Assembly: GCA_008636095.1 (NCBI GenBank)
Contig: VSJD01000129.1
Span: forward strand, 1-15,862
Direction: 5' to 3'
Origin: Kiritimatiellota bacterium
Lineage (GTDB): Bacteria; Verrucomicrobiota; Kiritimatiellia; JAAZAB01
Length of the DNA stretch: 15,862 nucleotides
In this document: in pieces, positions 4,202 to 15,858 of the stretch
Layout of the letters: every line of letters starts with the position of its first letter
Numbering within the stretch: position 1 is the stretch's first letter
Made by a program: the position numbers and the translations under genes
The notes under the pieces: model-generated
The model's database searches: none
What the model was told of the DNA's origin: nothing
The model's input: only the letters and a program-made list of their open reading frames with translations

Positions 4202-4222
4202 ACGGCAGGAAGACGGATGCCT

Positions 4223-4250
4223 GACGACAGACGACGGACGACAGACGTCG
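4223..4250 (+). repeat. Heptad array B: four GACGACA-type units
   Basis: Four consecutive 7-base units of the form GACGACA (variants GACGACG and GACGTCG). CAGACGACGGACG (4228-4240) is shared exactly with 6328-6340, in another spacer. The array directly abuts the palindromic module at 4252-4296. Confidence 0.8.
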
Positions 4251-5541: not shown

Positions 5542-6324
5542 ATGCTCAAAGATAAACGGGCCGTGATTACCGGTGGGGCGCAGGGATTGGGCGAAGCCCT
5601 CACCGCGCGCCTGCTGAAGGAAGGCTGTCGTGTCCTGGTGGCCGATATCCAGGATAAGCAGATTGACGTGACGGTAAAAACACTCCGGGCAACATTCGGT
5701 GATAAGATCGAGGGTATGGCATGCGACGTGACCGTGGAGGGCGATGTTGCCGCGCTGGTGGACAAAGCCGTCCAACGGTTCGGCGGTCTGGACGTTTTCG
5801 TGGCCAATGCCGGTATTCTCGTTTCGGGCTCGCTTCCCGAGTTCGATGTCGCCAAATGGCGTAAGGTCATGGATGTCAACCTGGTGGGCCAGATGATCTG
5901 CATGAAGTATGCCTTGCGGGTCATGGCGCGCCAGAAGAGCGGCGCCTACATCCAAATCAATTCCAAGTCGGGCAAAAAGGGCTCATTCAAAAATTCGGCT
6001 TATGCCGCTTCCAAGTTCGGCGGGATCGGGCTTGTGCAGAGCGCGGCGCTGGAAATGGCCGCGCTGGGCGTACGGGTCAACGCCGTCTGCCCGGGTAACA
6101 TGCTGGATTCGCCGTTGTGGGTCAACAGTCTGTTCAAACAGTATGCGCAGAACCAGGGGATTACCGAGGCAGCTGTGCGGCAGAAATACATTGACCAGGT
6201 GCCGATGCGGCGCGGGTGCGTGTATGAGGATGTCTGCAATGTGGTGATGTTCCTGGCCTCGGAACAGTCCGGCTATATGACCGGCCAGGCCATTAACGTG
6301 ACCGGCGGACAGGAGATGCGCTGA
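5542..6324 (+). CDS. SDR family dehydrogenase, sorbitol-6-phosphate dehydrogenase (SrlD)-like
   Basis: A 260-residue classical short-chain dehydrogenase. Visible features: GGAQGLG cofactor loop (11-17), Asp35 (NAD preference), DV at 62-63, NAG (89-91), and the catalytic tetrad Asn113, Ser141, Tyr154, Lys158 (YAASK). INSKSGK, NSAYAASKFGGIGL, the GN..LDSP region, the QYA...G......YID.VP.RRGC.YEDV stretch and the closing TGQAINVTGGQ closely parallel E. coli SrlD, which interconverts sorbitol-6-phosphate and fructose-6-phosphate. A related polyol or polyol-phosphate substrate is therefore likely, but SrlD-like proteins beside sugar kinases can use other substrates. AAAGGA lies 7 bases before the ATG. 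It is one of three different dehydrogenase types in succession in this operon. Confidence 0.88.
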   Translation: MLKDKRAVITGGAQGLGEALTARLLKEGCRVLVADIQDKQIDVTVKTLRATFGDKIEGMACDVTVEGDVAALVDKAVQRFGGLDVFVANAGILVSGSLPEFDVAKWRKVMDVNLVGQMICMKYALRVMARQKSGAYIQINSKSGKKGSFKNSAYAASKFGGIGLVQSAALEMAALGVRVNAVCPGNMLDSPLWVNSLFKQYAQNQGITEAAVRQKYIDQVPMRRGCVYEDVCNVVMFLASEQSGYMTGQAINVTGGQEMR

Positions 6325-6329
6325 AATCA

Positions 6330-6357
6330 GACGACGGACGCCAGACGACAGATGATG
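6330..6357 (+). repeat. Heptad array E: four GACGACA-type units
   Basis: Four consecutive units (GACGACG, GACGCCA, then GACGACA and GATGATG) immediately after the SDR stop codon. It shares exact 13- and 15-base words with the arrays at 4228-4240 and 2762-2776. Confidence 0.8.
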
Positions 6358-6386
6358 GAGAGGCAGAACCGAGAAGCAAACATCGA

Positions 6387-6456: not shown

Positions 6457-6533
6457 CCACCGAACGCCCAACATCGAATGGAATAGCGAAGGGCGGAACA
6501 GAGAAACAAACACTATTATGCGGAACGCATGAG

Positions 6534-11475: not shown

Positions 11476-11528
11476 GAGAGGTTGCCTGCCAATGCTTGGG
11501 GAAGCAGAACCGCAGTCCCAGTAAACGC

Positions 11529-11563
11529 CGAACATCCAACATCGAACGTCCAATGTCGAATGC
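11529..11563 (+). repeat. Heptad array I: five CGAACAT-type units
   Basis: Five consecutive 7-base words alternating CGAA and CCAA starts (CGAACAT, CCAACAT, CGAACGT and so on), directly before the aminotransferase ribosome site. CCAACATCGAA (11536-11546) recurs exactly at 6468-6478. The words also resemble the arm AACATTCCAACATTC of the palindrome at 13798-13833. Confidence 0.8.
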
Positions 11564-13094: not shown

Positions 13095-14381
13095 ATGTCA
13101 GTCCCGAAGTCAATGCATGCGATAGTTGCCCAGGTGTTTGCCGGCACGCCTGTGACCGACATTCACACGCATCTTTTTGATCCCGCCATGGGTTCGCTCT
13201 TGCTGTGGGGGATTGACGAACTACTGACTTATCACTACCTCGTGGCGGAAGTGTTGCGTGCCCGGCCGGAAATAACCTATAAAGCCTTCTGGACCATGCC
13301 GAAATCGGCGCAGGCGGACCTGATCTGGCAGGAGCTGTTTGTCAAGCGTACGCCGGTGTCGGAAGCCTGCCGGGGGGTGCTGACCGTCCTACAGGCGCTT
13401 GGCTTGAACGCCAACACCGAAAGGCTATCCGATATCCGCGCCTATTTTGCCGCTCAGACTGTGCACGGCTATGTGGACCAGGTGTTCAAGCTGGCCGGGG
13501 TGGAGTGCGTCTACATGACCAACGATCCACTTAATCCGGTGGAACGCGCGGTCTGGGAAAAAGGATTTGAACGCGATCCCCGCTTTCTTGCCGCCCTGCG
13601 GCTGGATAGCTCCCTCAAGGATTGGCCGCAGAGCGTTGCCAATCTCAAAGCCCTGGGTTATGCGGTGGATACGTCGCTCTCTGGCCGGACTTTAAGTGAA
13701 GTCCGCCGTTATCTCAATGACTGGTGCCAACGGATTGAAGCCCGTTATATGGCCATCAGCCTGGCGCCCACGTTCCGTTACCCTGACATGGGGGTTAAAA
13801 CATTCCAACATTCTGCAGAATGTTGGAATGTTTCCAGCCTTACCAATCTGATGGTCAAGGCGGTCATTCCGGTGGCCCGCGAGCGGGGTATTCCGGTGGC
13901 CCTCATGATTGGCGTTCGCAAGGCGGTTAATCCGGCCCTGGGCGACGCGGGCGATTCGGTTGGTTTGGCGGATATGGCCGCAGTGGAAAACCTGGCGCGC
14001 GATTTCGGCGACGTGACCTTCCTGGTGACCCTGTTGGCGCGCGAGAATATGCATGGCCTGTGCGTTGCCGCCCGTAAATTCAAGAACATTGTGCCGTTCG
14101 GCTGTTGGTGGTTTCTCAATAATCCGTCCCTGATCCGCGAGATTACTGCCATGCGCATGGAACTGCTGGGGCTTTCTTTAATTCCCCAGCATTCCGATTG
14201 CCGGATCCTGGATCAGCTCGTTTACAAGTGGGCGCATTCCCGGGCGGTGATCGGAGACGTGCTGGCTTCGAAGTACGATGATCTGGCACGGGCCGGCCGG
14301 CCGGTTTCCGAGGCCGATATCCGCCGCGATCTGGCGGTGCTGTTCGATGGCCGCCTGATCAATCAGCGTCCGCTTGTTTAA
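13095..14381 (+). CDS. Uronate isomerase-like protein (distant UxaC family, amidohydrolase fold)
   Basis: A 428-residue protein resembling the divergent glucuronate isomerases of PVC bacteria. It has VTDIHTHLFDP (20-30) with the two metal-type histidines H24 and H26, an Arg-rich central part, FLVTLLARENMHGL, the GCWWFLNNPS segment (337-345; compare the GWWFND region of UxaC), and PQHSDCRILDQLVYKWAHSR (364-383) with His366 and Asp368. UxaC isomerises glucuronate or galacturonate to fructuronate or tagaturonate. Sequence drift from E. coli UxaC is large, so another aldose/ketose or lactone substrate is possible. Residues 235-246 are encoded by a perfect 36-bp palindrome and look like an insertion between two conserved-looking strands. 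TAAGGTG stands about 5 bases before the ATG. It is the last gene before the intron. Confidence 0.72.
   Translation: MSVPKSMHAIVAQVFAGTPVTDIHTHLFDPAMGSLLLWGIDELLTYHYLVAEVLRARPEITYKAFWTMPKSAQADLIWQELFVKRTPVSEACRGVLTVLQALGLNANTERLSDIRAYFAAQTVHGYVDQVFKLAGVECVYMTNDPLNPVERAVWEKGFERDPRFLAALRLDSSLKDWPQSVANLKALGYAVDTSLSGRTLSEVRRYLNDWCQRIEARYMAISLAPTFRYPDMGVKTFQHSAECWNVSSLTNLMVKAVIPVARERGIPVALMIGVRKAVNPALGDAGDSVGLADMAAVENLARDFGDVTFLVTLLARENMHGLCVAARKFKNIVPFGCWWFLNNPSLIREITAMRMELLGLSLIPQHSDCRILDQLVYKWAHSRAVIGDVLASKYDDLARAGRPVSEADIRRDLAVLFDGRLINQRPLV
13798..13833. repeat. Perfect 36-bp palindrome inside a coding region
   Basis: Each arm is 16 bases (left AAACATTCCAACATTC), joined by TGCA at the centre; all 36 bases are self-complementary, and the next base pair outward does not match. 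It is exactly 12 codons long and inserts KTFQHSAECWNV into the uronate-isomerase-like protein without breaking the frame. The words echo the spacer array at 11529-11563. Confidence 0.95.
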
Positions 14382-14469: not shown

Positions 14470-15858
14470 TCACGGAACCGTACTTGAGCCTCTCGACTCA
14501 TACGGCTCTTGTTGTTTAATCGCGGGAAGGAGTCCCATCTGCCAGTGATAAAACAGCGTCGGCTGCCTTTGGGCAATCCCTTTGAGCCACCATGCTGTCT
14601 TCCTTGGCTTCACTCTGAACCGCCGAAACTTGTTCATCGCCCATCGCATAAGGACAAAGTTGAACAGTTTCAGTGTCTTGCGTAACTCCGACCCATAGAA
14701 TTTCCCGTAATAGTTAGCCCATCCTCTCAGCCGGGGATTGACATATTCGGCTATGCTTTCCAAGGTTTGCCCAATTCGTCGATGCACCTGCCACTCGCGA
14801 ATCTGCTGGCGTATGGCTTTGGTCGCTTTGTCGCTGACAGCGGGCAGAAATCCTAGACGCATCTTGCCTTGTTTCGTTCGGACTTGTCTTAGCCTGAATG
14901 TGTAGCCAAGAAAATCAAACGTACCGTTGATGGGCCTTTTCATTCTGTCCCCGTTGTTGCAGTATACCACTTTCGTCTTGTCCGGGTGTAACTGCAATTT
15001 ACACTCACCCAGACGCCCAGCGATTCTGCTCCGCAACTCCTCCGCCTGTTGCTCACTCGAACAGTGAACAATGATGTCATCCGCATATCTTTCAAAGAGC
15101 ACTTCCGGATAATTCCTCTGCATCCACTTGTCAAAGGCGTAATGCAGAAAGAGATTCGCAAGGATCGGACTTACCACCCCGCCCTGCGGCGTCCCTTGAT
15201 CTCTATCCGTTTGCGCGCCCGTTGGCAGTTGTGCCTTTGCCTTCAGCCACCGTTCAACATACAGGATGACCCACTTCTCCTTGGTATGCTTTCGCACCGC
15301 CTTCAGCATGAGCTCATGATCTATCGTGTCAAAGAATCCTTTGATGTCCAGATCCAGAACCCACCGCTGCCGCCAGCATCTTTCTCTGGCTTTCCCTACG
15401 GCTTCAAGCGCGGTCTTGCCCGGACGATACGCATAGGAATCCGTGTGAAATATCGGTTCGACTTCTTTTTCCAGAACCCTACTGCACACTGTCTGGGCAA
15501 CCCGATCGGCAACTGTCGGTATCCCCAGCTTTCTCTTCCCCCCGTCGCCTTTCGGTATTTCCACCACTCGTACCGGCGGAGGTATATAACTCCCGGAACT
15601 CATGCGGTTCCAGACTTTGTACAGGTTCCTTTTCAGGTCCCGTTCAAAGTCAGCTATCGTTTCCTTATCTACTCCCGCGCTCCCCTTGTTGGTTTTCACC
15701 AACTTGTAGGCTTTCCAGACTAACTGCTTGGGAATTCTATATGATTTTGCTTTATCCATTCGGTTCATCCCATTCCTGGTTGGCCTCTGAATAACGCTGA
15801 ACAACATGACCCCTTTGCTCCCTGTCCTTTCGGACAGTTCATTGCTACTACGGGTCAT
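14470..15858 (-). CDS. ltrA: Group II intron reverse transcriptase/maturase
   Basis: Up to 462 residues; the frame remains open beyond 15858, so the true start may lie outside the window or at an inner ATG (for example residue 31, MNRMDKAKSY, about 15768). Motifs in order: NKGSAGVD (57-64, RT0/1 region), RKLGIPTVADRVAQ (109-122), SYAYRPGKTA (141-150), the catalytic strand LDLDIKGFFDTIDH (168-181), QGTPQGGVVSPILANLFL (221-238), YADD (258-261), and the maturase X-domain segment LRGWANYYGKFYG (377-389). No HNH endonuclease follows. The reverse transcriptase copies the intron RNA and the maturase helps splicing. The last about 13 codons run into domain V, so the stop codon (14470-14472) lies just past that helix. 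Confidence 0.93.
   Translation of the reverse strand: MTRSSNELSERTGSKGVMLFSVIQRPTRNGMNRMDKAKSYRIPKQLVWKAYKLVKTNKGSAGVDKETIADFERDLKRNLYKVWNRMSSGSYIPPPVRVVEIPKGDGGKRKLGIPTVADRVAQTVCSRVLEKEVEPIFHTDSYAYRPGKTALEAVGKARERCWRQRWVLDLDIKGFFDTIDHELMLKAVRKHTKEKWVILYVERWLKAKAQLPTGAQTDRDQGTPQGGVVSPILANLFLHYAFDKWMQRNYPEVLFERYADDIIVHCSSEQQAEELRSRIAGRLGECKLQLHPDKTKVVYCNNGDRMKRPINGTFDFLGYTFRLRQVRTKQGKMRLGFLPAVSDKATKAIRQQIREWQVHRRIGQTLESIAEYVNPRLRGWANYYGKFYGSELRKTLKLFNFVLMRWAMNKFRRFRVKPRKTAWWLKGIAQRQPTLFYHWQMGLLPAIKQQEPYESRGSSTVP
14475..14508 (-). ncRNA. Group II intron domain V
   Basis: 34 bases on the minus strand beginning GAGCCGTA and ending TACGGTTC (an 8-bp outer stem with one G-U pair), then a bulge, a 5-bp inner stem GAGTC/GGCTC and a GAGA tetraloop. 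Length, AGC near the 5' end, two-base bulge and GNRA loop match the catalytic domain V of group II introns. Confidence 0.92.

Follow-up and report, generated by a model that had tools for sequence, protein, structure and literature searches.

REP and REPIN sequences are short dispersed palindromes that flank one linked gene, that of the RAYT transposase. For short palindromic elements without a transposase of their own, such as the Rickettsia palindromic elements (RPEs) and similar repeats, the questions of how copies spread and how they stay uniform are, to our knowledge, unsolved. The part of the published account on which we draw describes RPEs as sequences of about 150 bp, in ten families from Rickettsia species, that are tolerated in metabolic genes which are unrelated to one another and which they have entered in frame, and it describes MITEs as short inverted-repeat elements that are able to fuse in frame with host open reading frames (ORFs) (PMC10969869). 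We analysed a 15,862-nucleotide stretch of a Kiritimatiellota genome (the window) that contains a much shorter palindrome within a gene. We found no description of this element in the open-access library searched, a scope outside which most subscription papers and preprints lie.

The window palindrome (AAACATTCCAACATTCTGCAGAATGTTGGAATGTTT; Table 1) is perfect and spacer-free, with arms of 18 bp, and a sequence-only reading of the same DNA had judged such a structure to be far beyond chance. Our measurements agree: the next longest spacer-free palindrome of the window has an arm of only 6 bp, and the longest arm in 200 dinucleotide-preserving shuffles was 11 bp, which rules out a chance origin. 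The palindrome spans parts of codons 235–247 of a 428-aa ORF, and its RNA is predicted to form a hairpin (−20.4 kcal/mol, z −8.4). The sequence-only reading had also likened the arm words to heptad spacers elsewhere in the window and had derived the palindrome from them. The likeness is superficial (period 8 in the arm and 7 in the heptads, by eye), and we reject the spacers as a source because the 14-base arm word is found in the genome solely within palindromes. The spacers themselves are degenerate short intergenic repeats at 2744–2817, 4208–4247, 6323–6365, 6460–6478 and 11528–11560 whose period, again by eye, is unrelated to that of the palindrome arms. Just downstream of the palindrome-bearing gene, on the minus strand at 14470–15858, lies a reading frame with reverse transcriptase and group II intron maturase domains (RVT_1, GIIM).

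Table 1. The palindrome, the insertion and the host gene in the window.
Feature	Position	Strand	Remarks
Perfect palindrome, one of six copies in the genome	13798..13833	.	34-bp core AACATTCYAACATTCTGCAGAATGTTRGAATGTT plus one variable terminal pair, often mirrored
Stretch holding the 39-bp in-frame insertion	13791..13832	+	Absent from 8 of 8 orthologues found; exact edges not placeable
Host gene, uronate isomerase	13095..14381	+	Closest solved structure, Bacillus halodurans BH0493

The host ORF gave no Pfam or NCBIfam match at 0.001; its earlier description as uronate-isomerase-like is borne out by its predicted structure, which matches BH0493 with 50% identity in the Foldseek alignment. By protein search the gene is present in nine of the ten genomes of this Kiritimatiellota family, the window genome included, and none was found in the tenth (G007, 70% complete). 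All eight orthologues found (seven of which were aligned again separately) show a gap of 13 residues where the sequence-only reading had expected one, at residues 235–246: between YP(D/A) and an SSLTNL-like motif there are 2 residues in the orthologues and 15 in the window genome. That reading had been right that the gain is in frame, and had put its size slightly too low, at 36 bp and 12 residues; the net gain over the orthologues is 39 bp, or the palindrome plus about 3 bases. The same residues written in non-palindromic codons, the outcome that would have told against an insertion, were not seen among the eight orthologues, and the absence of the segment from all of them rules out that it is ancestral. 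Since the nearest relative, G008, is without the insertion and is nevertheless 87.8% identical over 2775 bp at this locus, the window palindrome is a recent in-frame insertion that entered the gene after the split from the nearest sampled relatives. In an AlphaFold model of the host protein (mean pLDDT 68.9, built from an alignment of 8 sequences) residues 234–246 have pLDDT below 50 and form a loop between a strand (219–223) and a helix (247–264), in line with the surface loop that had been foreseen. The earlier proposal of a palindromic element tolerated in frame in the RPE manner thus holds for this gene, given the orthologues without it, the preserved frame and the loop. As a separate observation, the G002 orthologue (L211) has one in-frame TGA within uronate isomerase.

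A search of the genome for the arm, which the sequence-only reading had proposed, yielded five further near-identical copies, and three of the six are identical across the 34-bp core. Three of the six have similarly flanked counterparts in G008, one in prmC and two at intergenic sites, at one of which the flank similarity is merely 191 bp at 77%. At a fourth, similarity to G008 and G009 is confined to the palindrome and roughly 60 bp from the end of a regulator gene (below); the window copy is missing from the G008 orthologue, and for the sixth (C11) the loci that we compared gave no counterpart. Seven of the ten genomes of the family carry the palindrome, with 31 copies in total, and in a sample of 387 genomes of the phylum it was found in five, all within the family, and in none outside it. 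A wider scan of one genome per species (84,980 species) gave at least 110 palindrome stretches, 80 of them with titles among the matches listed. Among these matches, the titles that name a lineage name either the window genome's family or Patescibacteria and candidate groups (Liptonbacteria, Sungiibacteriota, Brennerbacteria, Giovannonibacteria, Taylorbacteria and Nomurabacteria), and many say just "bacterium"; we take the candidate groups to belong to Parcubacteria. Fourteen genomes from the wider scan have 1–11 copies each, the highest number being that of G396. Near-identical copies are dispersed, then, across the window genome's Kiritimatiellota family and many Parcubacteria-type genomes.

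We collected 150 unique sites, 31 from the family and 119 from the listed stretches of the wider scan, and called the genes around them as long ORFs without a gene finder. The arms are perfectly matched over the 34-bp core at 110 of these sites, and mismatches are limited to arm positions 1, 2, 8 and 9. The inner dinucleotide varies among genomes and is largely uniform inside some of them (in six of six copies in G401 its second base is G, four of five in G402 have TG, and all four in G403 have CC or CT). At 59.5% of the solo sites the two bases that flank the core are complementary (29.4% with shuffled flanks), and from the second pair outward complementarity is near background; long mirrored flanks are therefore not the rule. 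A second hairpin-like repeat, GAATACGCC..GGCGTATTC, occurs after or before the palindrome at L137 2216–2260, L167 6476–6530, L100 816–870 and L080 940–967.

Most sites (116) are solo, and the others lie upstream (16) or downstream (18) of a small gene. Thirty solos are within ORFs of at least 158 aa, seven of them in the window genome's family (prmC counted four times) and 23 elsewhere, some of these in-ORF assignments being doubtful (at L063, for example, the gene probably starts downstream of the palindrome). The remaining solos are between tandem genes (44), between convergent (19) or divergent (7) genes, at contig edges (11) or in other ORFs (5). Housekeeping genes are among the hosts: TGT, TsaD, PGK, aldolase, MnmA and prmC. 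When 20 of the 23 ORFs from outside the family were scanned, 18 had a Pfam family, and in nine one Pfam match encloses the palindrome (PGK, class II aldolase, TGT, the MnmA C-terminal domain, PGA_cap, a glycosyltransferase, an FAD oxidase, TspO and NUDIX); in TsaD twice, and in TGT a second time, it lies between or beside matched Pfam stretches. Five comparisons with PDB structures placed the palindrome-encoded residues in or beside a gap or unaligned stretch, of a length that varies from 4 and 7 residues (MnmA and aldolase) to about 50 (TGT and TsaD), with no clean 12-residue insert. Fifteen of the 20 scanned ORFs read the palindrome in one and the same frame (HSNILQNVGM-like), which suggests selection on the encoded peptide.

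In prmC (L062, L040, L048 and L056) the insertion is a net 51 bp relative to G006, about 15 bases beyond the palindrome, and the palindrome is missing from G006 and from five other genera. Both the window gene and prmC, when compared with their orthologues, are thus coding genes that have received a palindromic insertion in frame, and from these two cases we conclude that new sites do acquire copies. The comparison of filled with empty sites is not a clean one: both insertions come with extra bases, the bases to the left of the window palindrome are unlike those of its relatives, no clear target-site duplication can be read, and the empty sites of both genes are too diverged to fix the exact insertion edges. 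As to a vehicle, the palindrome had no match in plasmids ("near" mode), and its exact pattern had none in viral contigs; phages gave partial matches only (29 of 36 bases among the matches listed, E 0.03–0.4, 282 records, often in a T4-type helicase gene), which we take as chance, and we accordingly reject a plasmid or virus carrier.

The small gene beside some copies encodes 88 aa and is enclosed by ten palindrome pairs 314–327 bp apart and by three more at 370, 418 and 455 bp; close pairs at 176, 292, 311, 384 and 390 bp enclose no such gene. In many of these cassettes the stop codon is within the downstream palindrome (AAAACATTCTAA). HTH_5 scored above its Pfam cut-off in three of four proteins scanned and MarR above its own in two of the four; PDB profile matches were to HlyU, Lmo1102, CadC and ArsR, and there is a resemblance to the HTH_metalloreg and SdpR models that falls below the NCBIfam cut-offs. 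The protein is modelled as a winged helix (mean pLDDT 92), for which Foldseek ranked MarR types first, closely followed by ArsR/SmtB types. By its domain the linked gene is a member of the ArsR-type winged-helix family. PHROGs and PADLOC gave weak winged-helix matches only, and we make no claim of a phage or defence role.

Twenty-two other aligned relatives are 52–85% identical to the Kiritimatiellota reference protein. Among 39 unique relatives above 60 bits a long palindrome is present upstream of 31, downstream of 31 and on both sides of 27, as compared with 155 of 2000 random 180-nt stretches from the same loci. Twenty-six of the 39 came from loci that had been fetched for their palindrome; the 13 fetched by protein search have one upstream in nine cases and downstream in eight. 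The main scan detected no palindrome at L193, L195, L196 and L197; with looser settings one appeared downstream of L193. Many diverged paralogues stand between palindromes of another sequence, and the two palindromes of one cassette agree with each other (e.g. AACATTATGACATTAGCAATAATGTCATAATGTT in L198). In 18 of the 21 proteins with Q at profile column 50, all detected arms combine the centre TGCA with the inner pair CA or TA (the exceptions are L100, L105 and L151); where the protein has E (16 proteins, four of them with no palindrome detected), a Q-type arm is found in none of the 12 with a palindrome. Two proteins have another residue at this column, and all these counts ignore shared descent. 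Palindrome and protein vary together among the paralogues.

The protein family is present in three of 126 genomes of the class, all of them palindrome-bearing members of the window genome's family. Four palindrome-bearing drafts, G000, G003 (94% complete), G006 and G007, had no member at E 1e-12, and G006 had one weak match at 8e-6. By comparison, a search at E 0.001 gave a relative in 13 of the 14 palindrome genomes that the wider scan had supplied (weak ones only in G401), and this uneven distribution suggests that the regulator gene and its palindromes may have been transferred horizontally between the groups. An unrooted FastTree tree of 23 proteins, in which the three Kiritimatiellota sequences stand together among the others (support about 0.8), is compatible with such a transfer and gives no direction. 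The window genome yielded no intact family member, only a remnant of the regulator gene's 3' end next to one of its palindromes, which therefore appear to be orphans.

Upstream cassette copies have a −10 box 16–18 nt from the right-arm TTRGAA in 9 of 16 cases (8% at control spacings), and this excess indicates that the upstream copy is part of the regulator gene's own promoter, an overlap that fits autorepression. A −10 box is found with in-gene copies in 8.3% (4.7% at control spacings) and at promoter spacing from intergenic solos in 6.0% of 168 orientations (5.4% in the control), and on the latter figures we reject a promoter role for solo copies. The sequence is nonetheless maintained away from the cassettes. 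The prmC copy has no variable column among its 36 in G000, G007, G008 and G009, four species whose prmC flanks differ by 11–18%, and each of 229 flank windows of 36 columns has at least 5 variable columns (mean 8.9). Two orthologous pairs of intergenic copies show a single difference each, and another pair is identical. Orthologous palindromes are conserved beyond their flanks, and so some process maintains the palindrome sequence. The simplest candidate is binding by the regulator, which the co-variation supports indirectly, although the window genome itself yielded no intact gene for it; homogenisation by conversion between copies may be another source of the uniformity.

We consider it reasonably probable that the palindrome is a mobile element, much like an RPE in its behaviour, whose sequence is maintained by an ArsR-type autorepressor that is linked to it and probably binds it. 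The 88-aa protein would bind the palindrome as a dimer and repress its own gene, and this binding would keep the palindrome uniform. Copies would spread within genomes through some recombination or transposition activity, presumably that of a mobilising enzyme. Insertions of a net length that is a multiple of three would be tolerated in loops, because the C variant of the palindrome is open in all six frames, and the gene and its palindromes would have crossed horizontally between Parcubacteria and the window genome's Kiritimatiellota family.

The solo copies might instead be scars of palindrome-gene-palindrome cassettes from which recombination between the two palindromes had removed the gene, in the manner of a solo LTR. 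The cassette structure is recurrent, the window genome keeps the remnant described above, and the C versus T mismatch between the arms at position 8, found in 13 of 150 copies, is what would result if half of an upstream palindrome (C) had been joined to half of a downstream one (T). Point mutation explains the mismatch equally well, however, no intact cassette was noticed within a reading frame, and a gene remnant that touches the palindrome (E <0.01) was found at only one of 116 solos (L063, E 0.004; L126, at 0.25, is doubtful), so we reject decayed cassettes as a general source of solos and think the scar explanation unlikely. Nor does the L063 remnant mark the locus of the intact gene of G008 and G009; similarity ends at 97 bp around the palindrome.

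Lower still we place the proposal that all of the palindromes are ordinary operators in the regulon of an ArsR-type repressor. It would accommodate the promoter overlap of the regulator's upstream copy, the co-variation of protein and palindrome, and the TTGA or CTGA that directly precedes the palindrome in 7 of 172 intergenic solo orientations, as it does in some upstream copies. Against it, intergenic solos have −10 boxes at about the control rate and are more often convergent than divergent, and 30 solos are within long ORFs, so that we regard it as very unlikely. We give slightly less credence again to the view that the palindromes are mainly transcription terminators or RNA hairpins that were spread and maintained for that function: 27 of 82 measured 3' gene ends lie at −10 to 20 nt from an intergenic solo (9 of 58 for 5' ends), T runs follow some copies, and the predicted RNA fold of the window copy is strong, but the stem is AT-rich, a quarter of the solos are in long ORFs, and a terminator would not need an exact core that is kept across distant groups. 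Least probable of all is that a RAYT-like Y1 transposase moves the copies as REP-type palindromes, since, for all the likeness of layout (scattered short palindromes and one gene linked to them) and the Y1_Tnp match in 15 of 21 palindrome-bearing draft genomes, the bracketed gene is not a transposase and six genomes (G007, G392, G393, G398, G400 and G404) have no such match, four of them holding the ArsR-type gene.

A broader and distinctly more tentative idea is one to which we would give only limited weight: Parcubacteria may have a whole class of protein-addressed mobile palindromes, in which many ArsR-type paralogues are bracketed by a palindrome of their own and copying depends on the regulator, also in frame into housekeeping genes, and one such pair may have jumped to the Kiritimatiellota family. 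In the 995 kb of loci examined we saw another 64 long perfect palindromes that differ in sequence (arms of at least 14, loop of at most 2), in several recurrent types that include TTCTCATTCGCGCGAATGAGAA and CTATTCN..TTTTGCAAAA; examples are L110 2512–2553, L115 5731–5772, L162 4594–4631, L140 3785–3818 and L144 5972–6013. Some of the 64 flank paralogues and a few are in the window family's own loci; they could include other members of the class. A protein that co-varies with its palindrome offers a direct handle on binding, repression and copying, the in-gene copies show one way in which core enzymes gain new peptide segments, and the distribution makes it probable that an exchange took place between ultra-small Parcubacteria and a phylum not related to them.

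How does the element compare with known systems? It differs from REP/REPIN-RAYT in that the gene flanked by its palindromes is an ArsR-type winged-helix regulator and not a transposase, and in that 6 of the 21 genomes with the palindrome gave no Y1 match. We know of no parental transposon for it. With MITEs, as far as the part of the account cited above describes them, it shares the form of a short inverted-repeat element and the ability to join host ORFs in frame; it differs in having no internal sequence between its arms and no clear target-site duplication (the edges are diverged). It resembles the systems of the ArsR/SmtB and SdpR autorepressors in the HTH_5 domain (three of four proteins), in the likeness to HTH_metalloreg and SdpR, and in a palindrome over the gene's own promoter, but the protein falls below the NCBIfam cut-offs, two members also pass that of MarR, a second palindrome closes the 3' end of the gene, and copies are dispersed in other genes. 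By behaviour, our analysis makes RPEs the closest known kind, inasmuch as a palindromic insertion is tolerated in frame in coding genes. RPEs as that part of the source presents them are about 150 bp long and belong to described Rickettsia families, whereas the present element is a perfect palindrome of 34–36 bp, found in two distant groups (Kiritimatiellota and Parcubacteria-type hosts) and accompanied by a specific regulator gene; because size, perfect symmetry, host range and linked regulator all differ, we place it apart from the RPEs.
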